Positions 7,987 to 63,829 of a DNA stretch of 64,000 bases are shown one piece after another. Each line of letters opens with the position of its first letter. Within the stretch, counting starts at the first letter, position 1. The DNA lies in NCBI GenBank assembly GCA_900215285.1, contig OCMG01000003.1, positions 248,001-312,000 of the forward strand. Direction: 5' to 3'. Position numbers and translations under genes: made by a program. Origin of the DNA: Ensifer adhaerens. GTDB taxonomy: Bacteria; Pseudomonadota; Alphaproteobacteria; Rhizobiales; Rhizobiaceae. The notes beneath the pieces are model-generated. The model was given only the letters and a program-made list of their open reading frames with translations. It did no database searches and was not told where the DNA came from.

Positions 7987-8009
7987 AACCCTGTCAACAG
8001 AGCCCTTTG

Positions 8010-8732: not shown

Positions 8733-8784
8733 GCAGATTCGAACACAATAAGACAGGCAGGCCGAAAGGCGGGAGGAGACAACA

Positions 8785-9972
8785 TTGCGGCAGGGTTGGA
8801 GATGGTTCGGGCCGGAAGCACCGGTCACGCTGGACGAGGTGCGCCAGACCGGTGCGACGAATATCGTATCCTCGCTGCATCAGGTTCCCATCGGCAGGGT
8901 CTGGACCGAGGCCGAGGTCGCCGAGCGCAAGTCGCTGATCGAGACGACGCCGGCGGGCCGCTCGCCGCTCGTCTGGTCTGTGGTGGAAAGCATTCCGATC
9001 CCCGATGCGGTGAAGCGCATGGGTGGCAAGGCGAAAGCCGAGATCGAGGCGTGGATTGCCAGCCTCGAAGCCGTCGCCGCCTGCGAAATCCCGATTATCT
9101 GCTACAATTTCATGCCGGTCGTGGATTGGACGCGCACCGAACTCGATTACGAGATCGAGACCGGGGCTACGGCCATGCGCTTCGACCAGGAACGCTACGC
9201 GGCCTTCGATCTCCATATCCTGCAGCGCGCCGGCGCCGAGGCCGAGTATTCGGCCGAGGATCGCACGCGCGCCCGCGCCGTTTTCGAATCCATGAGCGAG
9301 GCGGAGATCGCCGAGATCACCCGCATCATTACCTCCGCGCTCCCCGGTTCCACCACTGAGCCGATGACCGTGCCAGGCTTCCGCGACAAGCTTGCACAAT
9401 ATTCCGGCATCGATGCCGCAAAGCTGCGCCAGCATCTCATCGAGTTCCTGGAAGCCGTTACGCCCGCGGCGGAAGCGCGTGGCGTCAAGCTGACGCTGCA
9501 TCCCGACGATCCGCCGCGCCCACTCTTCGGCCTGCCGCGCATCGCCTCCACGGCTGACGATTATGCGGCACTCTTCGACACCGTGCCCTCGCCTGCCAAC
9601 GGCATGTGCTACTGCACCGGCAGCCTTGGCGTCCGCGCTGACAACGATCTGCCGGCGATTGCCCGCCGCTTTGCGGAGCGCATCCATTTCGTCCATCTGC
9701 GCGCCACCAAGCGCGAGGGCGATGGCCGCTCCTTCCATGAGAGCGCGCACCTCGAGGGCGATGTCGACATGGTGGCAGTCTTGAAGGAGCTCGTCGCGGA
9801 GGATCGCAAGCGCGAATCCACCTCGCAGATGGTCTTCCGCTCCGACCATGGTCACCGGATGCTCGACGATCTGACGAAGACCGTAACCCCCGGCTATCCG
9901 GCCATTGGCCGCATGCGCGGGCTCGCGGAGCTGCGCGGCATTCTCTACGCGCTCGGCGCGGTCCCGAATTGA
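8785..9972 (+). CDS. uxuA: Mannonate dehydratase
   Basis: Dehydrates D-mannonate to 2-keto-3-deoxy-D-gluconate in hexuronate catabolism; cytoplasmic, Mn/Fe dependent. The 395-residue length fits UxuA. The N-terminus MRQGWRWFGPEAPVTLDEVRQ and blocks such as ICYNFMPVVDWTRT and LHPDDPP (metal and substrate site) are characteristic. The start is TTG, chosen because GGGAGGAG lies a few bases upstream and the protein begins exactly where UxuA proteins do. It lies 52 bases after the GntR gene and nine bases before uxaC, so it is probably co-transcribed with uxaC and uxuB. Confidence 0.95.
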   Translation: MRQGWRWFGPEAPVTLDEVRQTGATNIVSSLHQVPIGRVWTEAEVAERKSLIETTPAGRSPLVWSVVESIPIPDAVKRMGGKAKAEIEAWIASLEAVAACEIPIICYNFMPVVDWTRTELDYEIETGATAMRFDQERYAAFDLHILQRAGAEAEYSAEDRTRARAVFESMSEAEIAEITRIITSALPGSTTEPMTVPGFRDKLAQYSGIDAAKLRQHLIEFLEAVTPAAEARGVKLTLHPDDPPRPLFGLPRIASTADDYAALFDTVPSPANGMCYCTGSLGVRADNDLPAIARRFAERIHFVHLRATKREGDGRSFHESAHLEGDVDMVAVLKELVAEDRKRESTSQMVFRSDHGHRMLDDLTKTVTPGYPAIGRMRGLAELRGILYALGAVPN

Positions 9973-9981
9973 GGCACTGAC

Positions 9982-11397: not shown

Positions 11398-12842
11398 CGA
11401 CACGCCTGCAAACTCTGGATGACTTGCCGGCTCACGTCATCCGCCCGGCCTATCGCCGGGATGCGCTCACCACCGGCATCCTGCATCTCGGGCCGGGCGC
11501 CTTCTTCCGCGCCCATCTCGCCGTTTACACGGACGATGTGCTTGCGAAGGACAATCGCTGGGGCATCGAAGCCGTCAGCCTGCGCAGCACCGATGTGGTC
11601 GATCACCTGAGCGAGCAGAATGGGCTCTACACTCTGCTGACGCGCGACACGGCGGGCACGACCGCCCGCGTCATCGGCTCCATCGTGAAGGCCCGCGCCG
11701 CTGTCCGCGATCCCGTCGGATTGCTTGAGCGCTTGGCCGATCCCGCCATCCGCATCGTCAGCCTGACCGTCACCGAGAAAGCCTATGGTCTCGACCCGCG
11801 CACGAGGGGCCTCGATCTCGTCCATCCCGACGTCGGCGCAGACTTGGCCAATCCGGCTGCGCCGCGCGGTGTCATGGGCCACATCGTGGCAGGACTTGCC
11901 GCCCGCAAGGCTGCCGGCATCGCGCCCTTCACCCCGCTCAGCTGCGACAATCTTCCCGGCAATGGCGCGGTGCTGAAGCGCCTGACGCTGGACTTTGCCG
12001 ACCGCATCGACCCGGCGCTGCGCCGCTGGATCGAAGACAATGTCCCCTTCCCCTCCACCATGGTCGACCGCATCACCCCGGCCAGCACCGGCGAGACCTA
12101 TGCAGATGCCGAACGCCTGACGGGTCATAGTGACCTTGCGGCCATCGAAACCGAACCCTTCTCGCAATGGGTGATCGAGGATCATTTCGCCAATGGCCGC
12201 CCGGCCTGGGAAGAGGCCGGCGCGGTGATGGTCGAAGATGTCTCGGCCTATGAGAAGATGAAGCTGCGCATGTTGAACGGCGCGCATTCGCTTCTGGCCT
12301 ATCTCGGCTTCATCGCCGGCCATGAATTCATCCGCGACACGATGCAGGACCAGAGCCTGAAATCGCTGGCGGAGCGCCACATGAAGGCCGCCGCCAGAAC
12401 GCTCGACCCTCTCCCCGGCATCGATTTCGACGATTATGCGCGCGCCCTCATCGCCCGGTTCGAAAACCGTGCGATCGCCCACCGCACCTACCAGATCGCC
12501 ATGGACGGCACGCAGAAACTGCCGCAGCGGCTGTTGCAGCCCGCGGTAGAAGCCCTGACACGCAACGACGATGCCGAGACCTTTGCCATGGCGGTCGCTG
12601 GCTGGATGCGATACGCTCTTGGCGTCGACCGTGACGGCAAGGCCTATGAACTGCGCGATCCGCGAGAAACGGAAATTACGGGCCTTCTCGCATCGGCAGG
12701 CGCAAGCAGCGAAGGCGTGTCGCGCGCGCTCTTTTCCCTGCCGGGCCTTTTCCCCGAGATACTCGTGAAGAACCGGGCGTGGACAGCCAGAGTCGAGGGC
12801 AATCTGGAAGGGATCATGTCGCAGAACCGCATGCCGTCATAA
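11394..12842 (+). CDS. uxuB: Fructuronate reductase / mannitol dehydrogenase family
   Basis: NAD-dependent polyol/uronate dehydrogenase of 482 residues. The Rossmann part begins near GILHLGPGAFFRAHLAVYTDD, and the catalytic C-terminal domain carries KMKLRMLNGAHSLLAYLG with the Lys and Asn-His of the mannitol dehydrogenase family. In this operon it most likely reduces D-fructuronate to D-mannonate, the substrate of UxuA. The GTG start overlaps uxaC. Mannitol or other polyol 2-dehydrogenase activity is the main alternative, since family members are hard to tell apart by sequence; the operon context favours UxuB. Confidence 0.9.
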   Translation: MTTRLQTLDDLPAHVIRPAYRRDALTTGILHLGPGAFFRAHLAVYTDDVLAKDNRWGIEAVSLRSTDVVDHLSEQNGLYTLLTRDTAGTTARVIGSIVKARAAVRDPVGLLERLADPAIRIVSLTVTEKAYGLDPRTRGLDLVHPDVGADLANPAAPRGVMGHIVAGLAARKAAGIAPFTPLSCDNLPGNGAVLKRLTLDFADRIDPALRRWIEDNVPFPSTMVDRITPASTGETYADAERLTGHSDLAAIETEPFSQWVIEDHFANGRPAWEEAGAVMVEDVSAYEKMKLRMLNGAHSLLAYLGFIAGHEFIRDTMQDQSLKSLAERHMKAAARTLDPLPGIDFDDYARALIARFENRAIAHRTYQIAMDGTQKLPQRLLQPAVEALTRNDDAETFAMAVAGWMRYALGVDRDGKAYELRDPRETEITGLLASAGASSEGVSRALFSLPGLFPEILVKNRAWTARVEGNLEGIMSQNRMPS

Positions 12843-12915
12843 GCGTCGAACGCAGTCGCCGGACCCGAGATCATCAAGGGCCCGGGAAAGCCACATGACG
12901 TGAAAGCCGCAGTCG

Positions 12916-13542
12916 TCAACGCCTTTCGGCAGAGGCGATATGCTGTGCTGAGCCAATCAGGCTAGCGAGCACCTTCAGGATCTGTGTCTTGTCGCGTGTG
13001 GCAAGCCACTGGTTGAAGGCACCGACGAGCCCGGTATAGATGAAATTCGCAAGATCCTTGATCTGCTCGGGGCTGTAACTGTCCGCGTCGGTCGACGTCA
13101 GCAACGTCTCTTCATACAGCGACAGAAACTCATGATCCTTGTCACGGGCAAGCGTGGCCGCGTGAGGGTGGCGCAGCAGATAAAGCGTCATTTCCTGCAA
13201 CGCCAGCTGCTCGTCGGGCGCCTTCTCGATCTCCTCCCAAATGAAATAGAGGAGTTCGGGAATGCGATCATGCAGCGTTTGAGGCTTCATGAAGCGGGTT
13301 GCCAGCACCTTGCGGTAATTGGTGACAAGTTGCCCCATCGCCAGGAAGAAAACCTCTTCCTTGTCGTTGAAGTGATAGTGCAGAGTCGCAAGGTTGACGC
13401 CTGCGGCCTCCGCAATCTTGCGCGTCGTCGCGTTGTAAAGACCATCCGAAATCATGACCCTGAGCGCGGCCCCGATGATGAGCTCGCGCTTTCCGTCACT
13501 GTTCGGCCGGACGATTCGGGCCTGTTTCAATGAAGCTTTCAT
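12916..13542 (-). CDS. TetR-family regulator
   Basis: Regulator of 208 residues. The N-terminal TetR helix-turn-helix (about 18-65, ATTRKIAEAAGVNLATLHYHFNDKEEVFF) precedes a C-terminal ligand domain. The long N-terminal tail is basic. It is transcribed on the same strand as the amidase, 30 bases after it, so both may share a transcript. The likely targets are the amidase and the divergent Liv-type transporter, whose spacer has strong palindromes. The ligand is unknown. Confidence 0.88.
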   Translation of the reverse strand: MKASLKQARIVRPNSDGKRELIIGAALRVMISDGLYNATTRKIAEAAGVNLATLHYHFNDKEEVFFLAMGQLVTNYRKVLATRFMKPQTLHDRIPELLYFIWEEIEKAPDEQLALQEMTLYLLRHPHAATLARDKDHEFLSLYEETLLTSTDADSYSPEQIKDLANFIYTGLVGAFNQWLATRDKTQILKVLASLIGSAQHIASAERR

Positions 13543-13572
13543 GCCCTCATCTTCTTTGTCGAGCCGGAATAA

Positions 13573-14991
13573 TCAAGCCTTCTTCGGATCGATCGGCAGG
13601 ATAGGGCCGATATGACGTTCGAGGGCGGCGGCGGCAGACAGGCAGCGTTCCTCGCGATACCAGGCGCTGACGAGTTGCACACCCGCCGGCACGCCATTGA
13701 CGAAACCGGCCGGTGCTGAAATTGCCGGAAGCGCCAGACCCGCAATCGCCGAGAGCGGCTTGAAGGCAGCAAGGATCGTCGCCATTGTCGCGATATCCAC
13801 CAAATCATGATTATGCGGAAATGTCGGCTGGAAGGCGGTCGGCATCAGCACGACCGGGTATTTTTTCAAGAGCCTTGCCCAGTCGCGCTGAATTGCGATA
13901 CGCCGCTGCCAGGACTGGATGAATTCCAGCGGAGAGAGGACGGGAAGCGCACCGGCGGTATGACGGAAAGCCGTCTCGAAATCCTGTCCGCCGAGCGCGA
14001 ACATCACCTCGCGGATCGGGCTCGGGGCTTCGGCATAGAGCATTGCCATCCACAGCTCGGCCATTTCACCCAGATGCGGAAGCTCGACTTCCTCGACTGC
14101 ATAGCCTTCAGCCGCCAGCCAGGAGGCAGCCTGTCGTACAAGAGCGGTCATGGCGGGGTCGACGCCCTCCGCCGTCGTGCCTGTATAGACAGCCACGCGG
14201 CAGGGGGCGACGTCTTCCACGCTTGGGAGAGGAAGAGGGGCAAGGGTCGGGTCTCGGTAATCGGGACGCTCCAGGGCGGCAAGGCCGAGACGCAGGTCGT
14301 TCACCGAGCGGGCCATCAGACCCTCTGTCGCGCCCATCTGGAGGCAGAGCGATTTTTCCACCTGGGCCGAAGGACTGTGACCCGGAAGCCGGCCGACGGT
14401 CGGCTTGAAGCCATAGATACCATTGACGCTGGCCGGCAGCCGCAGCGAGCCCGCGACGTCGTTGCCGTGGGTAATGGAGCCGATACCGATGGCGGAGGCG
14501 ACAGCCGCCCCGCCGCTCGACCCGCCCGGCGTCAGGGACGGATTCCAGGGGTTCAGCGTCTTGCCGTGAAGATCGTTCTGGGTGAACCAGCGATAGCAGA
14601 AGGCCGGAACATTGGTGCGGCCGACCACGATGGCGCCCGCATGGCGTAGATTGGCAACGGGCGAGCTGTCTTCGGACGCGATTGCATCCTTGGCTGCGAC
14701 AAGGCCGACGGTCGTGGCATGACCGGCCGTATCCACGTTGATCTTCACCGTGATAGGAACGCCATGCAGCTGACCAACTGCATCGCCGCGCTTGAGCGCC
14801 GCATCTGCTGCGTCGGCCGCAACAAGCGCTTCGCCCGACATATCGTCCACGACGGCGTTGACGGCAGGATTGACCGCGCGCATGCGGGCAAGGACTGCTT
14901 CGGTCGCCTCGCGGCTGGAGATTTCGCCGGCGCGGATCGCTGCGGCGGTACGCGCGGAATCCCACGCCCAGATTTCGGTGCCTGTAGTCAC
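13573..14991 (-). CDS. Amidase (amidase-signature family)
   Basis: Amide hydrolase of about 472 residues with the full Ser-cisSer-Lys triad: Lys near 83 (ITVKINVDT), the glycine/serine-rich GGSSGGAAVA around 156-164, and the nucleophile Ser near 182 (GNDVAGSLR). The GTG start follows GGGAGGAAAAC. There is no signal peptide, so it is cytoplasmic. It stands back to back with an operon for a Liv-type importer, which points to import of an amide (or N-acyl amine or aryl amide) and its hydrolysis here. GatA is unlikely because there are no gatB or gatC neighbours. The substrate is not determined. Confidence 0.9.
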   Translation of the reverse strand: MTTGTEIWAWDSARTAAAIRAGEISSREATEAVLARMRAVNPAVNAVVDDMSGEALVAADAADAALKRGDAVGQLHGVPITVKINVDTAGHATTVGLVAAKDAIASEDSSPVANLRHAGAIVVGRTNVPAFCYRWFTQNDLHGKTLNPWNPSLTPGGSSGGAAVASAIGIGSITHGNDVAGSLRLPASVNGIYGFKPTVGRLPGHSPSAQVEKSLCLQMGATEGLMARSVNDLRLGLAALERPDYRDPTLAPLPLPSVEDVAPCRVAVYTGTTAEGVDPAMTALVRQAASWLAAEGYAVEEVELPHLGEMAELWMAMLYAEAPSPIREVMFALGGQDFETAFRHTAGALPVLSPLEFIQSWQRRIAIQRDWARLLKKYPVVLMPTAFQPTFPHNHDLVDIATMATILAAFKPLSAIAGLALPAISAPAGFVNGVPAGVQLVSAWYREERCLSAAAALERHIGPILPIDPKKA

Positions 14992-15092
14992 GTTTTCCTC
15001 CCATTCTCCCACCGGCAGCCCCGTCTTTCGACGAGAGGAAATGACCTCCATCAAAATTCGAAGCGCCTGACCAGTTGACGGACGTTTAATCC

Positions 15093-15130
15093 AATCATAT
15101 GATTTGGTCAATTGATTAGATCATCAATTG
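15093..15130. promoter_or_regulatory. Palindromes in the amidase / Liv-transporter spacer
   Basis: Two symmetrical elements lie side by side in the 170-base divergent spacer: a perfect 12-bp palindrome AATCATATGATT (15093-15104), and an inverted repeat CAATTGAT / ATCAATTG (15109-15116 and 15123-15130). Both resemble TetR-type operators and end about 30 bases before the binding-protein ATG. Control by the TetR gene at 12916-13542 is inferred. Confidence 0.5.
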
Positions 15131-15161
15131 CGAGTTGGGATTTCGTTTCGGGAGGAGAAAC

Positions 15162-16499
15162 ATGAAGCCTATCAATGGGAAAACTACGCCCGCCATCCAG
15201 TCCGCATCGCGTCGCGATGTGCTGAAGCTTGGTGCGCTGGGCGCTGCCACCGCAGCTTTCTCGCTGCATTTTCCGGCAGCCAATGCTGCAGGCGGCGATG
15301 TGCTGCGCATCGGCTGGGTCGGCGCATTGTCAGGCCCGGGCGCTCTCTTCGGCGAGCCGGTGGATTTCATCAAGGCGCAGATGGAGAAGCTCTTCAAGGG
15401 CGGCCTGAAGATCGGCGCGAAGACCTATTCCGTCGAAATCCTGCTGCGCGACAGCCAGAGTTCGGTCAACGTCGCAACCCAGGTCACCATCGACCTGATG
15501 ACGCGCGAGAAGGTTGACCTGATCGTCGCATCCGAAGCCCTCGCGGCCATCGGCGGCGGTCAGATGGCGATCGTCACCAAGACGCCGATCGTTTCCAGCA
15601 TCCTGCCGTCCGACGCCATTCTCGGCATTCGCGGCGGGCCGGACGGCTATTCCAACAAGGGAACGCCCTGGACCTTCCACTTCTGCTTCTCGACAACAGA
15701 TATCAGCGCCGCCTATGTCGGTCTGTGGGAGCCGGTGCGCAAGCGGCTCAACGATACGGTCGGCGTGAGCTTCGTCGACCAGCCCGCCTCGCGCGGCTTC
15801 GCCGATCCGACGCACGGCCTGCCGGCCACGCTGAAGAAGAGCGGCTACAAGATGATCGATGGCGGCATGTTCAAGATGGAGACGCAGGACTTCTCCAACC
15901 AGGTCGCAGCCTTCCAGCAAGGCAATGCGCAGATCCTGTCGGGCTTCATGTTCGCCGACCACTTTGCCGGCATGTGGCGCAGTGCGGCGCAATCCAAGTA
16001 CAAGCCGGAAATCGCGACCGTCGCAGGCGCCTTCCTCTTCCCCGGCGGGGTCGAGGCGCTGGGCGACCGTGGCGACGGCATGTCGACTGAGATCTGGTGG
16101 TCGCCGAAACTGCCTTACAAGTCGTCGCTGACAGGCCAGAGCGCCAACGAACTGGCGGCAGAATGGGAATCCACGACCGGCAAGCAATGGACCGCCGTTC
16201 TCGGCTACACCCATGCCGTCTGGGAAGTGGCGCTTGCCGGCCTCAAGGCCTCCGGCGATCCGAAGGACAAAAAGGCGGTGCAGGCCGCCCTTACCAAGCT
16301 GACGCTCGAAACCGTCGTCGGCAAGGTCGATTTTGCCTCTGCCAAGGTCCCGGGTCTCGCAAGCACTCCGCTGGTCGCCGGCCAGTGGCGCAAGGCGAAG
16401 AGCGGCAAGTTCAAATACGACCTCGTCGTCACCTACAAGGGCTCGGATTCGCCCTTCCAGGTGGAGGACGAGTTCAAGCTGCTCTCCGAACTGGGCTGA
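15162..16499 (+). CDS. Liv-type ABC transporter substrate-binding protein
   Basis: Periplasmic binding protein of 445 residues, first gene of the Liv-type operon. The leader has a twin-arginine motif (SRRDVLKLGALGAATAAF, Arg 17-18) and a cleavage site near ANA-AGG. The fold is type I periplasmic binding protein (LRIGWVGALSGPGALFGEP), closest in style to amide/urea and aromatic-compound binders of the HAAT family rather than to LivJ itself. The ATG follows GGAGGAG. It is divergent from the amidase, so the ligand may be the amidase substrate. No lipobox is seen. Confidence 0.9.
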   Translation: MKPINGKTTPAIQSASRRDVLKLGALGAATAAFSLHFPAANAAGGDVLRIGWVGALSGPGALFGEPVDFIKAQMEKLFKGGLKIGAKTYSVEILLRDSQSSVNVATQVTIDLMTREKVDLIVASEALAAIGGGQMAIVTKTPIVSSILPSDAILGIRGGPDGYSNKGTPWTFHFCFSTTDISAAYVGLWEPVRKRLNDTVGVSFVDQPASRGFADPTHGLPATLKKSGYKMIDGGMFKMETQDFSNQVAAFQQGNAQILSGFMFADHFAGMWRSAAQSKYKPEIATVAGAFLFPGGVEALGDRGDGMSTEIWWSPKLPYKSSLTGQSANELAAEWESTTGKQWTAVLGYTHAVWEVALAGLKASGDPKDKKAVQAALTKLTLETVVGKVDFASAKVPGLASTPLVAGQWRKAKSGKFKYDLVVTYKGSDSPFQVEDEFKLLSELG

Positions 16500-54659: not shown

Positions 54660-55580
54660 TCATGGGTCTGCCGAAAGGGCCGCTCTCGCCAATGCCTCCA
54701 GGTCAGCATCCGCCCGGAAGCCGAGCGAGAGCGCAGATGTTGCATCAAGCGGCGGCATCGCTCCAAACAATGTGCGCAGGTTCTCGTCGCCGCCCCAATC
54801 GACGGAGACGGCACGCCCGGTCACACGGGCTGTCGCGGCAGCCACATCCTGCAGGGTCGCATGCAGCACAGGAGGCTGGACGATGGTGGCAGTCGCATTC
54901 TCAAGCGAAGCGGCCTTCAGCAGGACATCGACCGCCGCCGCGCGCGACATCCACCAGCAGGTACTTTCGGCCGCGACCGGACAGGCAAAGCGTCGACCTG
55001 CGGCGATATGGTGGAAAATCTGGCTCATAAAGGCCGAACCATGGCCGCTCTCGGCCTGCGGACGCGCGACGATCCCTGGAAAGCGCAGGCTGATGGCGGA
55101 CAATGCGCCGCGCCGGGTCATGTCCACCAGCAAGATCTCCATCATGCGCTTGTGTGCGCCATAGGTGATGAGAGGGGCCGTCTGCGTTTCCTGCGTCACC
55201 GTTGCATCGGTCAACGCGCCATAGACCGCGATCGAGGAAGCAAAGACGAAGCGTGCGCCGGGCCTGCGCGCCGCAACCTCGTTGGCCAGCGAAACGGGTG
55301 CCAGCAGATTGACCTGCAAGGCCGCATCTTGTTCGCGCTCCGCTAGGCTGCCGGGGAGACTTGCAAGATGGAAGACGACGTCGAAGCGGGGCTCGAGCAG
55401 AATGGCCCGGAAGCCCGGATCGGCGAGGTCGCCGGCCACGCATTCCGCGCCGACGACTTGAACTCCATCGACAGACCGATCGGTGAGGACCAGCCTCGCC
55501 TGCGGCGGCAGCCAGTCGGCAAGTCGTGCGGCAAGGCCGCGACCGAGAAAACCGCCTGCACCGGTGACAAGAACGCGCAT
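54660..55580 (-). CDS. NAD-dependent epimerase/dehydratase (extended SDR, DenD-like)
   Basis: Cytoplasmic oxidoreductase of 306 residues. The N-terminal NAD site is VTGAGGFLGRGLAARLA, the catalytic Ser-Tyr-Lys lies in FVFASSIAVYGAL and ITYGAHKRMMEILL (YxxxK), and SLRFPGIVARP is typical of the D-erythronate dehydrogenase (DenD) branch. It is the last gene of the catabolic operon and its ATG shares one base with the stop of the FAH gene. It could oxidise a hydroxyacid product late in the pathway. The substrate is inferred only at class level. Confidence 0.85.
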   Translation of the reverse strand: MRVLVTGAGGFLGRGLAARLADWLPPQARLVLTDRSVDGVQVVGAECVAGDLADPGFRAILLEPRFDVVFHLASLPGSLAEREQDAALQVNLLAPVSLANEVAARRPGARFVFASSIAVYGALTDATVTQETQTAPLITYGAHKRMMEILLVDMTRRGALSAISLRFPGIVARPQAESGHGSAFMSQIFHHIAAGRRFACPVAAESTCWWMSRAAAVDVLLKAASLENATATIVQPPVLHATLQDVAAATARVTGRAVSVDWGGDENLRTLFGAMPPLDATSALSLGFRADADLEALARAALSADP

Positions 55581-56557
55581 CAGGCCTTCACCACCTTCTG
55601 GTCAATCACGCCGAAAGGGGCATCCCCATCCGGCGTGCGCGCTTCCATCCGCACACGGTCTCCGAAACTGAGGAAGGGCGTACGCGCAGCCCCCTCATCA
55701 AGCATCTCGATGACACGAATCTCCGAGATGCACGAAGACCCCGCAGCGCGCTCGGAATTGGAGACGGTCCCGGAGCCGACAATCGTTCCCGCCGAAAGTC
55801 GGCGCGTGCGGGCGCAATGGGCGATGATCTCGCCGAAGGAGAAATGCATTTCACGGCCGGTCACGCGGCCGACTTCGCGACCGTTGATTTCGACATGGAG
55901 GGCAAGGTCGGCGCGGCCGTCCTGCCAGGCGCCCCCCAATTCATCCGGCGTGACGGCGACAGGCGCGAAGGCTGTCGAGGGCTTGGCCTGAAGAAATCCA
56001 AAGCCGGCGCGCATCTCGCGCGCGCCGACTGCGCGTAGCGACCAGTCGTTGATCTGCACCAGAAGGCGCACGGCATTCAGCGCAGTCGCCGCATCGGTCC
56101 CCATCACAACATCACCAAGAATGACGCCGAATTCTCCCTCCATGTCGATCATCAGCGCCTCGTCGGGAAATTCGACATCCGCGAGCGGACCCCGGAAATC
56201 GTCGCTGGCGCCCTGATAGACGAGCGGGATGGTCTCGAAGTCCGGATTGACAGGGTTGTCGAATGCCTTGTCCATCAGTCGGCCGTGATTGAGAAAGGCG
56301 GACGCGTCAAGCCATTGCGGGGCACGCGGCAGTGGCGCGAGACACCGGCGCGGATCGAACGCCGTTGCAAAAGGTTCATCGCCAGCATTCAGGCGGGCGG
56401 AAAGGGCTTCAAGTCGGGACGCGACACTGGTCCAGTTCTCCAGAGCCGCCAGCAGAGAGCCTGCGATGCCTGTCGCGGGAGCAGCGCGGGCAAGATCACG
56501 CGACACGACCCACAATTGCCCGTCGCGGCTACCGTCATGATAGGTGGCGAATTTCAT
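55580..56557 (-). CDS. Fumarylacetoacetate hydrolase family protein
   Basis: FAH-fold enzyme of 325 residues (hydrolase, hydratase or decarboxylase of 2-oxo-diacids from ring cleavage). The metal-binding acids are in LMIDMEGEFGVILGD near 135-150, followed by LLVQINDWSLRAVGAREM and SAGTIVGSGTVSN, all family hallmarks. The ATG at 56557 matches the family start. It sits among ring-cleavage genes, so it probably processes a C-C hydrolase or extradiol product. Related members include 2-keto-4-pentenoate hydratases and acylpyruvases; the sequence alone does not decide between them. Confidence 0.88.
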   Translation of the reverse strand: MKFATYHDGSRDGQLWVVSRDLARAAPATGIAGSLLAALENWTSVASRLEALSARLNAGDEPFATAFDPRRCLAPLPRAPQWLDASAFLNHGRLMDKAFDNPVNPDFETIPLVYQGASDDFRGPLADVEFPDEALMIDMEGEFGVILGDVVMGTDAATALNAVRLLVQINDWSLRAVGAREMRAGFGFLQAKPSTAFAPVAVTPDELGGAWQDGRADLALHVEINGREVGRVTGREMHFSFGEIIAHCARTRRLSAGTIVGSGTVSNSERAAGSSCISEIRVIEMLDEGAARTPFLSFGDRVRMEARTPDGDAPFGVIDQKVVKA

Positions 56558-56610
56558 GGCCTTGATCCTTGGTTCTATTCCTGCTTTCGGCCCGTCAGCC
56601 CGCAACGTTT

Positions 56611-57192
56611 TCAGTGGCCGACGAGGCTTGCGGCAATGGCCGGGTCGTAGACGCCGGAGACGAGCACGAAGAGCATCCGGCACGGACGGCCGGAGCGATT
56701 GGCCCAGGCATGGTTCGTGCCGCGCTGGATAACCACGGAGCCTGGCTTCAGCAGCACTTCGCCGTCGTCCACGATCAGCGTCATCTCCCCTTCGATGACG
56801 ATGCCGTAATCGACCGATTCCGTGCGATGCATGAGCGGATGCGGCGAGGTTTCGCGCACGGTCGAGGCGTCCGCGTCGCCGATCTGCGTGAAGGCCTCGC
56901 CCATGCGGCTTGCGCCGTCCTTCAGGAAGTCTTCCGTATCCGGCGGGATATCGACGAAACGGATGCGCGTGCCGCCCGGCGGGGGCGGAAGGGTGAGCGG
57001 CCCAAGCGTCGGATCGGCCCCGTTATCGACCGGAGCAGGGCTCTGCGATGTCGCCCAGACCTCGTGAAAGACGGTGCCGGGAATGGCGGCAACCTCGACA
57101 ACAGTTGGGAGCGGACCGACTTCGCTCAGGAAGGCGGTTCCATCCTGGCGGTGGCCGGTGACGATGCGGGTGATAGGCGGAAAAGATGTCAT
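56611..57192 (-). CDS. Cupin-domain protein
   Basis: Protein of 193 residues with a C-terminal cupin_2 barrel (about 115-185: HRTESVDYGIVIEGEMTLIVDDGEVLLKPGSVVIQRGTNHAW, given by its positions; His residues of the two cupin motifs are present). The N-terminal half lacks a second complete cupin motif. The start overlaps the MFS stop (ATGA). In aromatic operons such proteins are isomerases, dioxygenases or lactone handlers; which applies here is unknown. Confidence 0.85.
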   Translation of the reverse strand: MTSFPPITRIVTGHRQDGTAFLSEVGPLPTVVEVAAIPGTVFHEVWATSQSPAPVDNGADPTLGPLTLPPPPGGTRIRFVDIPPDTEDFLKDGASRMGEAFTQIGDADASTVRETSPHPLMHRTESVDYGIVIEGEMTLIVDDGEVLLKPGSVVIQRGTNHAWANRSGRPCRMLFVLVSGVYDPAIAASLVGH

Positions 57193-58307
57193 GCTGCTTT
57201 TGCCTTGGTGAAGAAGGTGATGGAGACGGCGGCGACGAAGACGGCGGCGATGCCGAGCGCGCCGAAGCCCAAATTCTCACCCAGCGCCCCGCCGATGATG
57301 GGACCGAGTGCCGCACCGATCATCAGCATCGCCGGCGTGGCGGCCACTGCACGACCCGAGGGATCGAGCCGGGCAAGCAGGCCGAAGGCGAAGGTGTGGG
57401 TGAAGATTTGAACCGCCACAAAGACAGCCGCGGCCGGCGCCCAGAAGATGAAAACGGTTGCCCCGGTGACGACCAGCGCCAGCACCGCCTGCACGGCCGG
57501 ACCGATCTGCACGATCACGCTGGCTGACACGCGGTTCTGGAGCAATGTGGCAAGTGGTGCGGGAAACAGAAAATTGACGATGCCCAGCGCGATCAGCACG
57601 CCCAGGACATGGGCGGGCTCGAAGCCGCGTGATTTGCCGATGACCTCGACGAAGGAGAACACCATGGACTGGTTGAACGTCATGATGCTGACGCCGAATA
57701 TGGTAAACCATGTCGCGCGGTTGAACGGTACAACGGTGTGCGCCTCGACCGAAGACGGATTGCGAAACAGCAGCGCGCATGCCAGTGCGGCCAGCGTCAT
57801 CGCGCCGCTGAAGACCTGAAACAGGGCCGGTCCGCCATGCGCGATCAGCAATTGCGGGATGGCGCCGAGGAGGACAATTCCGAAAAGACCGATCGCGAGG
57901 CCGGCCAGCGCAAACAGGCGATGCGGATTGGCGGAACGTCCCATTGTGCCATGGACCATGGAGAGCGCCGACCCGACAGAAAGACCGGCCAGCAGATGCA
58001 GCGCCGCCAGCGGCACGAAGCCGGTTTGGGTGGAGGCGAGGAAGAAGGACAGAGCCGCCATGCCGAAGCCGCAGACCGCGACGAGGCGCTGATTGACCCG
58101 GTTGAACCGATGCGCTGCAAAAGCACTGGCTGCAACGGCCCCGAGCAGGAAGAGCGTTGCAAGGCTCCCGGCCTGCTGCGGGCTGAAACCGAAACGCTCG
58201 ACCAGCGCGCCCACCCAGACCGGCAGCGCAATGAGATCGAGCATTCCCGCGCAATGGGCGATAACGAGAGCGACGATGGCCCCCTTCCTGAAAGTTTGTC
58301 CTGACAT
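57189..58307 (-). CDS. MFS transporter
   Basis: Inner-membrane transporter of 372 residues with about twelve hydrophobic segments. The MFS gate-like sequence after TM2 is AFAAHRFNRVNQRL. The ATG follows AGAGGAGAGATC. A 103-base gap separates it from the FAD-monooxygenase gene upstream and might hold an internal promoter (TTTGTTTGTTTTGTAATG region). It most likely imports the aromatic or heterocyclic substrate of the operon or exports a toxic intermediate. The shorter-than-average length is within family limits. Confidence 0.88.
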   Translation of the reverse strand: MSGQTFRKGAIVALVIAHCAGMLDLIALPVWVGALVERFGFSPQQAGSLATLFLLGAVAASAFAAHRFNRVNQRLVAVCGFGMAALSFFLASTQTGFVPLAALHLLAGLSVGSALSMVHGTMGRSANPHRLFALAGLAIGLFGIVLLGAIPQLLIAHGGPALFQVFSGAMTLAALACALLFRNPSSVEAHTVVPFNRATWFTIFGVSIMTFNQSMVFSFVEVIGKSRGFEPAHVLGVLIALGIVNFLFPAPLATLLQNRVSASVIVQIGPAVQAVLALVVTGATVFIFWAPAAAVFVAVQIFTHTFAFGLLARLDPSGRAVAATPAMLMIGAALGPIIGGALGENLGFGALGIAAVFVAAVSITFFTKAKAA

Positions 58308-58410
58308 GATCTCTCCTCTGCCCAGTCAGTGCACACAGGCGTCTGCAACCTCCTCAATCGCAGCGCCAGTGCGTTCTATTTGTTTGTTTTGTAATGTTTT
58401 ATCGGATTCC

Positions 58411-59541
58411 TTAGATCGCACCCGCCAGCGTCTTCATGGAGACCTGCATGATCGCGGCATGCTCCTCGCGGTTTCCGTTATTCATTTCGATATCGGCCAG
58501 CTTGCCGGAGTTTTCGACGACCATGCGGCAGCGTTCGTAGCGCCGCTCTTCGAAAGCCGAGAGAGCGGACGTGAGATCGGCGCCTGCCGACACTTCCTCG
58601 GCGAGCACCATGGCATCCTCGATGCCGATACAGGCACCGGCGGCCAGATGCGGGGTGGTCGCGTGAACGGCATCGCCGATCAGCACGACACGGCCGTTGG
58701 ACCACGGTCGCGGCAGGAGCATCTGCTCCAGCGGCCGGTAGACGATCTGGTGCTCGGAAGAGAGCTCGGAGGCGATCTTGCGGATGATCGGCGAGGGGAA
58801 GCGTTCGAGCAGGGCACGCAATGCGGGCACGAACGTCTCCGGCGGGACATGATCGTTGGTGGGGCGGTCTTCTGTCAGGAAAAGATAGACTGTGTCCTTC
58901 GTCACCCGGTTCATGCCGACCTTGAGGTTCGGTCCCATCCACATGGCTACCGTGTCGATGCCCTCCGGCTTCGGCAGCACGGCGCGCCAGACCGACTGGC
59001 CGATGAAGCGCGGCTTCGGCGCCTGCGGAAACACCTTTGCCCGCACCGCCGAATAGAGCCCGTCCGCGCCGATCACGAGATCGTAGCGGCCCTGCGATCC
59101 GTCGGAGAAGGTGACGGAAACGCCGTCTGCATCCTGCCGGAGATCGGTGAAGGTCAGGCCGAGCCAGATATTCGTGGTCGAGGCCCGCACGGCTTCGGAG
59201 AGGATCTTCGCCAGCGCCGGCCGCATGATCGCGCCGCCACCAGGCAGGTCCGGCCCCGCCACACGCGGCGTCGGCAGCGTCACGAGCACCTGATCCTGCG
59301 GCCCGCGCATCTCGACTCCATCGGTCGCAAAGCCTTCTTCGAGGAAGCGGTCGATCAGGCCGAGTTGCTTCAGCACCCGAAGCGTCGAGCCGTGAAGGCT
59401 GATGCCGGCGCCATAGGAGCGCCATTGCGGATCGATCTCCACGAGATCGACGGACAGACCGTTGCGGGAAAGCTGGAGTGCTGCGGTCATGCCGGCAAAG
59501 CCGCCGCCGATGACCAGAACTGTCTTGATGCCTGAATTCAT
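58411..59541 (-). CDS. FAD-dependent aromatic-ring monooxygenase
   Basis: Flavoprotein hydroxylase of 376 residues, class A (salicylate / p-hydroxybenzoate hydroxylase type). It has the FAD site VIGGGFAGMTAALQLSRNGLSV at the N-terminus, the DG motif VIGADGLYSAVRA near 155-167, and GDAVHATTPHLAAGACIGIEDA near 280-300. It uses NAD(P)H and O2 to hydroxylate (or decarboxylate and hydroxylate) a phenol or hydroxypyridine. The ATG overlaps the Rieske gene by four bases. Upstream in-frame sequence lies within the Rieske gene. The substrate is unknown. Confidence 0.9.
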   Translation of the reverse strand: MNSGIKTVLVIGGGFAGMTAALQLSRNGLSVDLVEIDPQWRSYGAGISLHGSTLRVLKQLGLIDRFLEEGFATDGVEMRGPQDQVLVTLPTPRVAGPDLPGGGAIMRPALAKILSEAVRASTTNIWLGLTFTDLRQDADGVSVTFSDGSQGRYDLVIGADGLYSAVRAKVFPQAPKPRFIGQSVWRAVLPKPEGIDTVAMWMGPNLKVGMNRVTKDTVYLFLTEDRPTNDHVPPETFVPALRALLERFPSPIIRKIASELSSEHQIVYRPLEQMLLPRPWSNGRVVLIGDAVHATTPHLAAGACIGIEDAMVLAEEVSAGADLTSALSAFEERRYERCRMVVENSGKLADIEMNNGNREEHAAIMQVSMKTLAGAI

Positions 59542-59903
59542 GCTCGCTTCTCCTCCTGCGCCGCGGGCACGAAGATCTCCCCTTCGTCGCCGATCGTCAG
59601 CGCGATGCGTGTCAGATTTTGTCCCAGGCAGGGGCCGAGGACGCATTCGCCGGTTTCCATGTCGAACAGCGCGCCATGCGAATGGCAGGCCATGTGGGTC
59701 TTGTCGCCATTGAGATAGGCGTCGGTCTTCCAGGCCATGGGCGTGCCTCCGGGATAGTGCGGGCAGGCGTCAAGCCAGGCATGCAGCACACCGTTCCGCC
59801 GCAACACGACGACCTTGCGCCTGTATCCCTCCAGCGGCCCGAAGCCCCGGGCCTCGCCTTCGCGGATATCGTCGGTGTGGCAAAGCAGCATTGTGGATGC
59901 CAT
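59538..59903 (-). CDS. Rieske [2Fe-2S] ferredoxin
   Basis: Small Rieske protein of 121 residues with ligands CPHYPGG (Cys 47, His 49) and CHSHG (Cys 73, His 76), the full C-x-H...C-x2-H set. There is no signal peptide or oxygenase alpha domain, so it is a soluble electron carrier. It overlaps the FAD monooxygenase gene by four bases. It may pass electrons to a partner oxygenase or keep the VOC dioxygenase iron reduced. No dedicated ferredoxin reductase is present in the operon. Confidence 0.9.
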   Translation of the reverse strand: MASTMLLCHTDDIREGEARGFGPLEGYRRKVVVLRRNGVLHAWLDACPHYPGGTPMAWKTDAYLNGDKTHMACHSHGALFDMETGECVLGPCLGQNLTRIALTIGDEGEIFVPAAQEEKRA

Positions 59904-59922
59904 GCTCCTCCCTCCCGAGCCT

Positions 59923-60867
59923 TCAGGGCTTTGCGCCGGGCGGCGGGCCGCCGGGAGCCCACTTCTCGCGCATCTCGAAGAGCACGATCTGCGAGGCTTC
60001 CGGCCCCATCTGGGCTTCGCGCGCGACCCATTCGTCATCGTGCTTGTCCATGTCGGCGTCATATTCGAAGTGACATCCGAGCGGGCTGTTGAAGTACCAG
60101 AACCAGTTCGAACCGAACTTGTGGCGACCGGGCCCCCAGAAGCTCTGGTAACCCTTCTTCACGAAGCGGGTGCCGGCCACCATCAGCTCTGTCGGGCCAC
60201 CCATGTGGAAGGCAAGGTGCTCGCAGCCCTTCATGTAGTCCGGCGTGCGGATGAAGAAGAGCGTGTGGTGGTCGTCATTGGCCTTGGGCCGCAGGAACGG
60301 ACCCGCGCCCTTCAGTACATCGGTGATGACGAAGCCGAGGCGGCCGCAATAGAAGTTCGTCGCAACCTCGATATCCGGAACGAAGAGCACGACGTGGCTC
60401 AGCACGCGCGGTGCGGCCGGCATCTCTTCCCAGACGCCGATCTCGTTCGGTTTGCGCTGTGCGGGCGCGCCCGGCGCATTGATCTTCTCGGCCGGCATCA
60501 CGAGTTCGCGACGCTTCGTCACCTGGAATTTCAGCTCAAAACCGTGATCGTCCTTCGTCTCGATGGACCCGTCGGCGAGGCGCGTGACCCGGCGATCCTT
60601 CGACAGTTCCGCCTCGATAGCGTCAATGTCCGCAGCGGCGCGCACGCCATAAACCTGCTGGCGCAGCATATTGGAGGTCGGCAGCGGCGGCGGCAGCGTC
60701 GGGTCGGACTTGTGGCGGATGATCAGGCCTGTTCCATCCAGCGCCTCGAACAGTCCACCCTTTTCCGTCACGTCGATAGGCTTCAGGCCAAAGGCGGTAA
60801 GATATTCGATGGAGGCGGCGAGATCGTCGACGCCGAAGACAAGATAGTCGGGACCGATAATGTTCAT
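59923..60867 (-). CDS. VOC-superfamily extradiol-type dioxygenase
   Basis: Ring-cleaving dioxygenase candidate of 314 residues with two VOC modules (about 5-120 and 152-270). The C-terminal module keeps a plausible 2-His-1-carboxylate metal site: His 158 (VLSHVVLFVPD), His 217 (CEHLAFHMGG) and Glu 268 (CHFEYDADMD). This is the pattern of type I extradiol enzymes such as 2,3-dihydroxybiphenyl dioxygenase. It is 29 bases after the EthD gene and 19 before the Rieske gene. Substrate unresolved; a catechol-, hydroquinone- or hydroxypyridine-like diol is likely. Confidence 0.85.
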   Translation of the reverse strand: MNIIGPDYLVFGVDDLAASIEYLTAFGLKPIDVTEKGGLFEALDGTGLIIRHKSDPTLPPPLPTSNMLRQQVYGVRAAADIDAIEAELSKDRRVTRLADGSIETKDDHGFELKFQVTKRRELVMPAEKINAPGAPAQRKPNEIGVWEEMPAAPRVLSHVVLFVPDIEVATNFYCGRLGFVITDVLKGAGPFLRPKANDDHHTLFFIRTPDYMKGCEHLAFHMGGPTELMVAGTRFVKKGYQSFWGPGRHKFGSNWFWYFNSPLGCHFEYDADMDKHDDEWVAREAQMGPEASQIVLFEMREKWAPGGPPPGAKP

Positions 60868-60896
60868 GGGTTCAAAACCTCGAAGTCGGCGCCGGA

Positions 60897-61565
60897 TCAA
60901 CCGGCGTTGAGAACGTATTCGTTGGCGATGGCGATGGAGATATTGCCGGCTTCCGCCGGCAGGCGGTCGCGGATGGCGTCGCGAGCGCCTTGCGCAAAGG
61001 CGAGCCCCGCCGCTTCATCAGGCAGCCGGAAGATGTCGACTCCCTTGACTGGATGCGGTACGGCCGGAAGGCAGCGGCTCTGTCCGAGGACGGCTCCGGC
61101 ACCCGCACCCAGCGCGTCTCGCAGCGCTGGCATGGCCGGCATGGCTCCATGCCAGAAGACGAAAACCTTGACGGGGCTTGACGCCTGACGGTCGGGCTCG
61201 GCGATGATCTCTTCGTTGACCGGAACACCGACAACGCGCTCAGGATCGACCATGCGCGGCTCATCGGGCAAGAGGTGCGTCTTGTAAAACTCCGTCTCGC
61301 GGCCGGCCTTCAATGCCGCCAGGTTCTGGGTCCAGATCTCGGTGACAAAGTCGAGACCGATGGCAAACGGCTCCGGTTGACCTTCGTTTCCCGGAAAAAT
61401 GCCGTCGAAGACATGGTTCTGGACATAGCGCCCCGGCGCATTTTCCGGATCAGCGGCGATGTAGTCCAGTACCAGCTTGCCGTGGACATTCTTCATGTGG
61501 TGGCGGTGTTCGGCCAGGCTTTGACCGCGTGTGCGGCGACCGACCATCAGGATCTTGAAGCTCAT
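60897..61565 (-). CDS. EthD-domain protein
   Basis: Cytoplasmic protein of 222 residues with two ferredoxin-like EthD modules. The first has FKILMVGRRTRGQSLAEHRHHMKNVHG near 3-29, the second begins near 130 (VKVFVFWHGAMPAMPALRDALG). EthD proteins include small lyases, isomerases and monooxygenase partners in aromatic and polyketide pathways. Its ATG overlaps the hydrolase stop by four bases. Its role here is unknown. Confidence 0.82.
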   Translation of the reverse strand: MSFKILMVGRRTRGQSLAEHRHHMKNVHGKLVLDYIAADPENAPGRYVQNHVFDGIFPGNEGQPEPFAIGLDFVTEIWTQNLAALKAGRETEFYKTHLLPDEPRMVDPERVVGVPVNEEIIAEPDRQASSPVKVFVFWHGAMPAMPALRDALGAGAGAVLGQSRCLPAVPHPVKGVDIFRLPDEAAGLAFAQGARDAIRDRLPAEAGNISIAIANEYVLNAG

Positions 61566-62734
61566 GCTGCTTCTCCCGCAGCGGTGCGACCGCCCAGCGT
61601 TTCGGCAACCCAGTCGGCGATATAGGCGCCGGCATTGGCGGAATTGTCGAAGCTCGAATGCTGGACGCCGCCGGTGCGGGCGTCGAAAATCTTCAGCTCG
61701 CGCTTCGGGCTGTTGACCAGTTGGTCATAGGTCGCGTGCGCCCATTGCAGCGGGATCTGGCTGTCCTTCTCGCCGTGGGTGACGAGGAACGGCACCTTGA
61801 TACGGTCGAGGACGCCATCGAGATGAACGTTTTCAGCGATGCGCATGAAGTCATCCATGTCCTTCGCCCCCCAGACCCACATAACGTGGCTCCAGTAATG
61901 CGGGACCGGGAAATTGCCTTCCTTTGCAAGGCGCTTCTTCTGCACGTCGCGCCAGTCATGGTTTGCGCCCCAGACGACGCCGCAGGCAAAGCGCGGCTCG
62001 AAGGCGACTGCGCGCGGACAGTAGTAGCCGCCCAGTGAAACGCCCTCCATGCCGATGCGCTTCGCATCGACCTCCGGGCGGGTTTCGAGCCAGTCGACGA
62101 CGCGGCTCGCCCAATGTTCGCTGTCGAAGCGGGCTTTTAGATCGTGAAGGCGTAGCGCCTCGCCGGTGCCGGGCTGATCGACAATCAGCGAGGCAACGCC
62201 GCGCTTGGCAAGCCAGCCAGGCAGGCCGACGAGGAACTTCATTTCCTTGGTGCTGTCCAGGCCGTTCACCTGAACGAGGAGCGGCTGCGGACCGGCAACA
62301 CCCTCGGCCGGGACGTAGAGTGCGGAAAGATGCTTGCCCTCATAGGGAATTTCGACGCGGCGGCAGGTCGAACCAGAAAGCCGCAGACCCTTTTCGAAGC
62401 TTGTGAGAAAGCGCTGGTAGAGCGCCACGCGGCCGTCGGAGCCGTGTGCCAGCATGCGCTCGGCGGTCAGCATGTAATTGGCGGCGCGGATCAGCTTGTC
62501 ACCTGCCGAGATAAGGCGTCCGCGCACCTCGTCTTCGTCGGCAAGACCGACCAGCTTGTCGGCCATATCGATCCAGGTCTGCCGGAAAGCCTGCGTTCCT
62601 GCAGCGTCGGGGGCCTTTGCGGCCTCCTGAAGAGGAGCGCACATCTCCTCGATCTCGCCCATCCGCGCGCCCATCTCGATCGACAGATTGACCGAAAGGT
62701 TCCAGACATAATTGGTGGGGAAGTACTTGAACAT
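61562..62734 (-). CDS. Alpha/beta hydrolase, C-C bond hydrolase type (DHPON-hydrolase-like)
   Basis: Hydrolase of 390 residues with an N-terminal helical cap region (about 1-120), then an alpha/beta core. The catalytic triad is visible: Ser 233 (GVSLGGYY), Asp 324 (HGEKDSQIP) and His 359 (GGVQHSS). The layout resembles 2,6-dihydroxypseudooxynicotine hydrolase, which cleaves a C-C bond beside a dihydroxypyridine ring, and related family members. It is first in the catabolic operon, preceded by GCGAGGAGATGTC. Acting on a side-chain ketone or a ring-cleavage product is inferred. Confidence 0.85.
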   Translation of the reverse strand: MFKYFPTNYVWNLSVNLSIEMGARMGEIEEMCAPLQEAAKAPDAAGTQAFRQTWIDMADKLVGLADEDEVRGRLISAGDKLIRAANYMLTAERMLAHGSDGRVALYQRFLTSFEKGLRLSGSTCRRVEIPYEGKHLSALYVPAEGVAGPQPLLVQVNGLDSTKEMKFLVGLPGWLAKRGVASLIVDQPGTGEALRLHDLKARFDSEHWASRVVDWLETRPEVDAKRIGMEGVSLGGYYCPRAVAFEPRFACGVVWGANHDWRDVQKKRLAKEGNFPVPHYWSHVMWVWGAKDMDDFMRIAENVHLDGVLDRIKVPFLVTHGEKDSQIPLQWAHATYDQLVNSPKRELKIFDARTGGVQHSSFDNSANAGAYIADWVAETLGGRTAAGEAA

Positions 62735-62872
62735 GACATCTCCTCGCGGGCTCGGCCCTTTGGCCGCAGTCGTCGGGAGACCGTGAGAAAACAGGACCCA
62801 TAGGCCTGTCCGCGTCACTCCTCCCGAAGGCAGACTTAACGAAGATCAAGCCGTTTACAAAATTGCTTCGAT

Positions 62873-62891
62873 GAATGATTTATATTCATTC
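62873..62891. promoter_or_regulatory. LysR-type box between hydrolase operon and LysR gene
   Basis: The inverted repeat GAATGA / TCATTC (62873-62878 and 62886-62891, seven-base spacer) contains the T-N11-A form typical of LysR boxes. It lies 24 bases before the LysR start in a 180-base divergent spacer. Confidence 0.55.
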
Positions 62892-62914
62892 GGTAAATAC
62901 CAAAGAGGCGTCCC

Positions 62915-63829
62915 GTGCGATTCAAGAATCTCGATCTCAATCTGCTGGTCGCACTCGACACGCTGATCCGCGTGCGCAATGTCAGCCGGGCCGCAGACGA
63001 AATGTTCATCACCCAATCGGCGATGAGCAACGCGCTCGGTCGGCTGCGTGACTATTTCGACGATCCACTGCTGATTCAGGTCGGCCGCACGATGGAGCTG
63101 TCACCGCTCGCGGCATCGCTCGAGCCTTCGTTGCGGGACATCATCGTGCGCATTGAAGCGGCCATCGTCACGACGCCCTCCTTCATGCCGGAAGAGGCCA
63201 CGCGCACGATCAGCCTCATCGTCTCCGACTATACGCTCCACACGGTCATGCCGCTTTTTCTCGAACGTGTCAGCCGGCAGGCTCCGAGGCTGCATATCGA
63301 CTTCAAGCCCCAGCAGAACCTGCCCCATCTGCTGCTGGAGCGGGGCGAGGCCGACCTTCTGATCGCCCCGACGGTGTTCCTGTCCCCCAATCACCCATCG
63401 GAAGTATTGTTTCGGGAGCCAATGTGCTGCGTCGTCGCCGAGGATGGTCCTTTCAAGGGCGTCAAGTTGACGGAGCAGGAGTTTCTTTCGGCCGGCCACA
63501 TCGCGATGCAGCCTCCGAACGGGGGAGACAGTTTCGCGCAGCGCATATGCGATCAGCTGGGTCTGAATATCCGCATCGAAGTCACCACCTATTCCTTCAC
63601 GTCGCTTCCGCTCCTGGTGCGCCAGTCGCGGCGAATTGCACTGGTCCAGCGCAGCCTCGCCGACAGCATGTTGCCGCTTGGGGGCCTGCGCATCGCGGAG
63701 CCGCCGGTGACAATGCCCGCCCTCGAGCAGTCGATGCAATGGCACAGCTATCGAACACGTGACCCGGCGCTGAGCTGGATTCGCGAGCAGATTCGCCAGG
63801 CCTCGGCCAGCATCCACGTGCCCGAGTAG
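62915..63829 (+). CDS. LysR-family regulator (NodD-like branch)
   Basis: Regulator of 304 residues. The N-terminal helix-turn-helix (MRFKNLDLNLLVALDTLIRV, RNVSRAADEMFITQSAMSNALGRLRDYFDDPLL as its continuation) is of the NodD/NahR type, and a periplasmic-binding-like effector domain follows (about 90-300). The start is GTG. It is divergent from the catabolic operon, so it is the probable activator responding to the aromatic substrate or an intermediate. NahR and NodD bind aromatic acids and flavonoids, which suits this context. Effector not determined. Confidence 0.9.
   Translation: MRFKNLDLNLLVALDTLIRVRNVSRAADEMFITQSAMSNALGRLRDYFDDPLLIQVGRTMELSPLAASLEPSLRDIIVRIEAAIVTTPSFMPEEATRTISLIVSDYTLHTVMPLFLERVSRQAPRLHIDFKPQQNLPHLLLERGEADLLIAPTVFLSPNHPSEVLFREPMCCVVAEDGPFKGVKLTEQEFLSAGHIAMQPPNGGDSFAQRICDQLGLNIRIEVTTYSFTSLPLLVRQSRRIALVQRSLADSMLPLGGLRIAEPPVTMPALEQSMQWHSYRTRDPALSWIREQIRQASASIHVPE

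Follow-up and report, generated by a model that had tools for sequence, protein, structure and literature searches.

The closest described systems are the fde operon of Herbaspirillum seropedicae SmR1 and the ifc cluster of Variovorax sp. V35, and we compared with them a nine-gene operon and its divergent LysR gene in a 64,000-nucleotide stretch of DNA from Ensifer adhaerens (here called the window). The fde operon is reported to comprise ten open reading frames (ORFs) (PMC9422121), and its FdeE is described as a broad-range flavonoid 8-hydroxylase (PMC11303751) that performs the initial hydroxylation with the Rieske-type carrier FdeD, a Rieske protein without a reductase of its own (PMC8552027). 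Two routes have been proposed for naringenin, one by C-ring opening and one by 8-hydroxylation and A-ring oxidation, with protocatechuate ending both (PMC11303751). The LysR regulator FdeR is reported to act at the fdeR-fdeA spacer and to have naringenin, chrysin and daidzein as its ligands (PMC10799723). In the ifc pathway, daidzein is 8-hydroxylated and then acted on by an FdeC-like dioxygenase; the reported intermediates include 8-hydroxydaidzein and 2-hydroxy-5-(4-hydroxyphenyl)-4H-pyran-4-one, the substrate of cupins, and IfcD is described as acting on a pyranone (PMC11069340). The same account describes a hot spot that groups fdeC-like, fdeE-like, cupin and 2,6-dihydroxypseudooxynicotine (DHPON)-hydrolase-like genes, reports that Bradyrhizobium and further Proteobacteria also carry ifc genes, and gives the gene turning the intermediate X2 into the pyranone X3 as unidentified (PMC11069340).

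The operon in the window is very probably a Rhizobiaceae variant of this fde/ifc pathway of flavonoid A-ring meta-cleavage, as found in Herbaspirillum and Variovorax, and not a new kind of pathway. We make this assignment from sequence comparison, given the Fde-named homologues of its enzymes, the side of the tree on which its monooxygenase falls, the motif pattern of that enzyme, and the conserved gene set and order. An earlier note on this DNA had described the operon as uncharacterised and matching no named pathway; homologues named FdeC and FdeE place the set with the fde/ifc clusters for flavonoid A-ring cleavage, and it becomes a testable flavonoid pathway in Rhizobiaceae. Many members of this family use flavonoid signals in their dealings with plants. 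Literature searches on fde-type operons in Rhizobiaceae and on the role of the operon's EthD protein showed no account of this operon among the papers listed.

Layout and conservation of the operon

The window spans G000:C3:248001-312000 of the source genome (G000; 5.19 Mb in 6 contigs). Nine minus-strand genes are tightly packed from 62734 to 54660, in the transcription order alpha/beta hydrolase, EthD, VOC, Rieske, FAD monooxygenase (FMO), MFS, cupin, FAH-family and SDR, and a spacer of 180 bases separates the hydrolase gene from the divergent LysR gene. The intergenic spacings in that order are -4, 29, 19, -4, 103, -4, 53 and -1 bases, which agrees with the observation in the earlier note that overlaps or short gaps join most of the genes. 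All ten ORFs are intact and open. The hydrolase start was set to the ATG at 62734, which is kept in the DNA alignment, in place of a longer GTG ORF, and the FMO start was set to the ATG at 59541. With domains called on the window proteins from Pfam and NCBIfam, the features are as follows:

62915..63829, plus strand: LysR-type regulator, FdeR-like by position (Pfam HTH_1 and LysR_substrate; divergent from the operon)
62851..62880, no strand assigned: conserved non-coding block, candidate regulator site or promoter region (column identity in 14 aligned loci)
61562..62734, minus strand: alpha/beta hydrolase, DHPON-hydrolase-like (Pfam Peptidase_S9/FrsA-like; match to 2jbw)
60897..61565, minus strand: two-domain EthD protein, additional to the genes usually present (Pfam EthD)
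59923..60867, minus strand: VOC extradiol dioxygenase, FdeC-like (Pfam Glyoxalase/dioxygenase; FdeC-named homologue)
59538..59903, minus strand: Rieske [2Fe-2S] protein, FdeD-like (Pfam Rieske, 1.2e-10; CPH...CHSH in the translation)
58411..59541, minus strand: FAD monooxygenase, FdeE-like, proposed flavonoid 8-hydroxylase (Pfam FAD_binding_3; FdeE-named homologue)
57189..58307, minus strand: MFS transporter (Pfam MFS_1)
56611..57192, minus strand: cupin, proposed pyranone-opening enzyme with a role as for IfcD (Pfam Cupin_2)
55580..56557, minus strand: FAH-family hydrolase (Pfam FAA_hydrolase and FAA_hydro_N_2; match to 3lzk)
54660..55580, minus strand: SDR of the extended epimerase type (Pfam Epimerase, 1.4e-23)

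Conservation of the gene set was assessed in the best 80 of 470 confirmed relatives obtained by scanning genome contigs with an alignment of 29 VOC sequences, a sample that is biased given that loci were picked by VOC similarity. The loci originate from Rhizobiaceae, Rhodobacterales, Burkholderiales, Pseudomonas and others, and L001 and L002 are excluded from the counts. A gene was scored as present when tblastn with the window protein gave a match at E <= 1e-8 over more than half of the query; contig ends cut some loci, and some matches may represent paralogues at another place in the locus. On this basis, matches were found for VOC in all 80 loci, FMO in 78, the hydrolase in 77, Rieske in 74, FAH in 66, MFS in 64, cupin in 52 and SDR in 51, and a LysR match lay somewhere in the locus in 67. 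The eight core genes just named (LysR not included) occurred together in 43/80 loci; 40 of these loci have them colinear on one strand, and L055, L069 and L073 do not, so the grouping is not due to chance. These results uphold the earlier suggestion that the genes form one ordered operon for ring cleavage, served by a LysR regulator of its own, here divergent. The neighborhood search proposed in the same note bore out co-occurrence for the core genes; EthD is the least widespread member of the operon (18/80 loci). All ten genes, EthD included, were seen in three Agrobacterium vitis genomes (L058, L067 and L081).

The trait is patchy, given that 13 of 151 same-family species genomes sampled had a VOC match at E <= 1e-80, as did 7 of 398 species genomes sampled from the phylum (G000 included in each). 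Of 72,556 plasmid records, 55 held a relative of the FMO at E <= 1e-60, with an identity of 60-80% in 11.

Predicted enzymes of hydroxylation and ring cleavage

The window FMO is 57% identical to P0144, named by its source "naringenin degradation protein FdeE," and belongs to the PRK06847 subfamily (519.6 bits against a cut-off of 372), the sole NCBIfam row over its cut-off among the matches listed. It carries GxGxxG at position 12 and GDAxHxxxPxxxxG at position 289 and lacks the F motif. FdeE is likewise reported to have the GxGxxG and GD motifs and no F motif (PMC9422121), and the predicted motif pattern of the window FMO is thus the one described for FdeE (PMC9422121, PMC11303751). A maximum-likelihood tree was built from 80 rows, comprising 77 locus FMOs and three other rows; L028 was excluded because of a stop within its matched FMO stretch. 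The window FMO and P0144 share one supported side of this tree (74 rows, 99/97), and the nearest rows to the window protein are from Rhizobiales/Rhizobiaceae. Outside that side lie the FMOs of five loci (36-39% to the window FMO) and the genome's own FMO paralogue.

Four gammaproteobacterial loci (L046, L048, L060 and L071) combine a window-type hydrolase and VOC with this distinct FMO group at 36-39%, and these FMOs are perhaps isoflavone-type enzymes.

The Rieske gene overlaps the FMO gene by 4 bases. The absence of a reductase had been taken in the earlier note as a hint of an N-heterocycle or acyl-phenol substrate; the same arrangement is reported for FdeED (PMC8552027), and a lone Rieske protein is to be expected given that the fde pathway has a counterpart in FdeD.

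The window VOC enzyme is 78% identical to P0055, named by its source "naringenin degradation protein FdeC." His158, His217 and Glu268 (P0116 numbering), which we take to be the metal ligands of a 2-His-1-Glu site, are invariant in 29/29 aligned sequences and align with BphC (1han), so the key residues of the ring-cleavage enzyme are retained. The hydrolase finds its best solved-structure match in DHPON hydrolase of the nicotine pathway (2jbw; E 1.9e-18, 70 bits), as the earlier note had recognized, with the serine of a GxSLGG motif, one Asp and one His aligned; these three residues are presumably catalytic. The two enzymes share the alpha/beta hydrolase type, and DHPON hydrolase is described as cutting a C-C bond beside a dihydroxy ring, whereas the match is distant and the neighbors of the window gene are of flavonoid type. 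Domain calls and homologues thus agree with what had been proposed: hydroxylation by an FAD enzyme that has a Rieske partner, extradiol cleavage by a VOC enzyme, and C-C hydrolysis.

The likeness to 2jbw, together with FMO matches to 6-hydroxynicotinate and 2,6-dihydroxypyridine hydroxylases, could point to degradation of an N-heterocycle of the hydroxypyridine or nicotine type. We consider this very improbable. Both pyridine-type hydroxylases are distant matches that rank below 3rp6 (an unspecified flavoprotein monooxygenase) and 8rqh (tropone 2-monooxygenase), the hydrolase type is also reported from the isoflavone ifc hot spot (PMC11069340), and the reading stands against homologues named FdeC and FdeE. 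Nothing beyond distant enzyme kinship was found for the N-heterocycle substrate favored earlier. The acyl-phenol suggested alongside it came close, given that the A-ring of a flavanone is an acyl-phloroglucinol.

Proposed pathway, rival substrates and counterevidence

Under the flavonoid A-ring reading, an FdeR-like LysR protein would sense a flavonoid and switch on the operon, and the MFS protein would move the substrate. The FdeE-like FMO, with the Rieske protein, would hydroxylate a 5,7-dihydroxyflavonoid such as naringenin at C8, and the FdeC-like VOC enzyme would cleave the C8-C8a bond of the resulting 7,8-diol to yield a 2-pyranone bearing a 2,4-dioxo acid side chain. Retro-Claisen hydrolysis at C4a-C5 by the DHPON-hydrolase-like enzyme could then release oxaloacetate and 4-hydroxy-6-(4-hydroxyphenyl)-5,6-dihydropyran-2-one. 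The cupin may open the pyranone ring, the SDR may oxidize the C5 hydroxyl, and the FAH-family enzyme may hydrolyze the 1,3-diketone to 4-hydroxybenzoate and acetoacetate; the order of these three steps is a guess. The FAH-family protein has 3lzk as its best solved match (E 3.7e-87), and the match of the SDR to D-erythronate dehydrogenase falls below the cut-off. Experimental support is confined to hydroxylation and ring cleavage, in homologues, and, for regulation, to FdeR of H. seropedicae; all post-cleavage steps are ones that we infer and have fitted to the published pyranone intermediate. Most of the conserved genes are thereby given a predicted step, and exact masses can be stated for the predicted intermediates: m/z 287.0561 for 8-hydroxynaringenin, 319.0459 for the product of VOC cleavage, 223.0612 and 221.0455 for the products of the cupin and SDR steps, and 137.0244 for 4-hydroxybenzoate.

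The proposed pyranone is C11H10O4 (m/z 205.0506), and the two balances tested close. For X3 of the ifc pathway, C11H8O4, we computed m/z 203.0350, with 203.0353 reported (PMC11069340). As X3 is described, the proposed pyranone is the dihydro, 6-aryl counterpart of this unsaturated, isoflavone-type compound, and the correspondence favors a cut at C8-C8a, with C5-C8 being lost. The assignment also bears on the stated gap in the ifc pathway between X2 and X3 (PMC11069340).

Several features are shared with the fde operon (FdeR and ten genes): a divergent LysR gene, alike in position only; an FdeE-type FMO with a Rieske partner, the FdeC and FdeE likeness being known through the Fde-named homologues; and the alpha/beta hydrolase, MFS, cupin, FAH and SDR genes, in an order as in Burkholderiales loci. 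An EthD gene is added in the window. The ifc cluster shares 8-hydroxylation, as proposed for the window operon, fdeC-like cleavage (IfcB is given as 65.8% to FdeC), pyranone cupins and a DHPON-hydrolase-like gene. It differs in IfcA, which is reported as isoflavone-specific and just 36.3% to FdeE (PMC11069340), whereas the window FMO is 57% to the FdeE-named protein.

A substrate other than a flavanone or flavone, within the same pathway class, is a lesser but real possibility that overlaps with our assignment; an isoflavone, a phloretin-type dihydrochalcone, an acylphloroglucinol or a chromone would each offer a 1,3-dihydroxy-acyl ring. Enzyme range does vary within the class, as the narrow IfcA and the broad FdeE illustrate (PMC11069340, PMC11303751), and the added EthD gene and divergent regulator could signal another substrate. 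The window FMO nevertheless groups with the FdeE-named protein and apart from the distinct FMO group of the five other loci.

The operon could also be a detoxification or signal-quenching module that clears antimicrobial or signaling flavonoids and does not serve growth, an idea compatible with the chemistry proposed above that we regard as rather doubtful. The Variovorax cluster is reported to relieve daidzein toxicity, though it also serves growth (PMC11069340), and the congeneric genome G117 has no cupin at E <= 1e-8, so the capacity for full breakdown may at times be lost. The window operon, by contrast, retains cupin, FAH and SDR genes, and the source genome has a 4-hydroxybenzoate hydroxylase over its cut-off together with two neighboring genes for intradiol dioxygenases (C4:1172508 and C4:1173139), so that 4-hydroxybenzoate, an end product of the proposed pathway, has an outlet.

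Returning to the assignment as an fde/ifc variant, the regulator-operon spacer was considered for a candidate control site. Across 14 aligned loci, mostly Rhizobiaceae, mean column identity is 0.91-0.94 at 62851-62880, as high as in flanking coding sequence, and 0.51-0.79 at 62741-62830. We read the block at 62851-62880 as a candidate regulator site or promoter. The spacer is longer in the aligned Agrobacterium vitis loci L058 and L067. T-N11-A boxes were rejected as proof of an FdeR site, given that their count is not above that of shuffled sequences.

A number of observations weigh against the assignment. On the regulatory side, LysR conservation is modest (median identity 45%), the T-N11-A boxes number 12 against 9.3 in shuffles (P 0.20), and G117 has no LysR match beside the operon in the stretch read. 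The labels FdeC and FdeE stem from a metagenome source and could themselves have been passed on by similarity, which leaves the link to H. seropedicae and V35 proteins an indirect one, and the FdeE-named P0144 itself fails the GD-motif pattern. No Herbaspirillum record was found among the best 120 proteins per protein search or the best 80 loci. The window operon has no PF04199 cyclase, which we take to be FdeG. It also lacks a Phenol_MetA_deg (PF13557) gene and begins with the hydrolase, not with fdeA; we infer that the PF13557 gene is of FdeA type from a table in which FdeA is entered as homologous to a "phenol degradation protein" (PMC8552027). Mutation of fdeA is reported in a review to have lowered naringenin degradation in H. 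seropedicae (PMC9686724), for which the C-ring-opening route has also been proposed (PMC11303751). Lastly, knockout of the DHPON-hydrolase-like gene in V35 is reported to have left daidzein degradation unaffected (PMC11069340), so the hydrolase is not proven to be an essential step, with the proviso that a later block would not show as substrate loss.

The EthD protein and modularity of the operon

The real puzzle of the operon is its lineage-restricted EthD protein, whose gene sits between the hydrolase and VOC genes wherever it occurs in the 80 loci. Its predicted model (predicted local distance difference test score, pLDDT, 91.8) has a dimeric alpha/beta-barrel fold, with the invariant His23 and His28 within the helix at 17-38. 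When the EthD alignment was run as a profile against solved structures, the three matches had E 0.61 or worse and none was meaningful, and the likeness to chalcone isomerase of Eubacterium ramulus (catalytic His33) is a fold match only. Bacterial chalcone isomerase opens the C-ring by a retro-oxa-Michael reaction. We considered that EthD might be a new flavonoid-breakdown enzyme, a two-domain dimeric alpha/beta-barrel isomerase opening the C-ring in the same way, with a flavanone or the pyranone left after A-ring cleavage as substrate and His28 or His23 as base. This lineage would then couple A-ring and C-ring cleavage in one operon, a proposal that we put forward as unlikely.

EthD as a stand-in for the cyclase was rejected, given that 13 of the 18 EthD loci also hold a PF04199-family ORF (cluster u0; L006, L009, L010, L016, L018, L037, L039, L049, L053, L058, L067, L079 and L081) and that a cyclase homologue lies elsewhere in the window's own genome and in those of L035 and L036. 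The cyclase and the Phenol_MetA_deg gene both recur in relatives, in at least 44/80 and at least 24/80 loci, respectively; these are lower bounds because the choice of ORF at times took an overlapping antisense ORF (family u7).

The front and back halves of the operon are separable modules, given that the congeneric genomes G014 and G117 keep the front half without the cupin-SDR back half and that the cupin varies among the six genomes searched for it, with no match at E <= 1e-8 in G117 and G084. In G014, what comes after the front half (LysR, hydrolase, EthD, VOC, Rieske, FMO and MFS), where cupin-FAH-SDR would be expected, is a LysR gene (31%), a stretch of about 3.6 kb, a cyclase (57%) and an FAH gene (53%); a cupin (65%) lies at C10:149592-150158. 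The operon ends after MFS in the stretches read from both genomes (L115, G014:C10:155000-174000; L116, G117:C40:42500-61500), with no window-type cupin and SDR there. L035 and G117 are apparently one assembly, with matches at the same places.

In the source genome, the single homologue of the cyclase at E <= 1e-15 is at G000:C2:73904-74656 (56%). The region around it (L113, G000:C2:64500-83500, at 8367-14608) holds a second FAH gene with the PF04199 cyclase, an NMT1-type ABC transporter and a LysR gene, near repB/repC-type genes, and the FAH-cyclase-LysR set of G014 is spaced much as it is here. The single homologue of the FdeA type at E <= 1e-10 is at G000:C3:15329-16210 (61%), beside a second ring-cleavage cluster in this genome (L112, G000:C3:8000-27000, at 7279-15188). 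This cluster encodes an MFS protein (54% to the window MFS), an alpha/beta hydrolase, an FMO (39.5% to the window FMO), a LigB-type extradiol dioxygenase and a BKACE enzyme, together with a distant hydrolase (25%) of the window hydrolase's type, and it has the look of a parallel to the fde scheme that is built on LigB.

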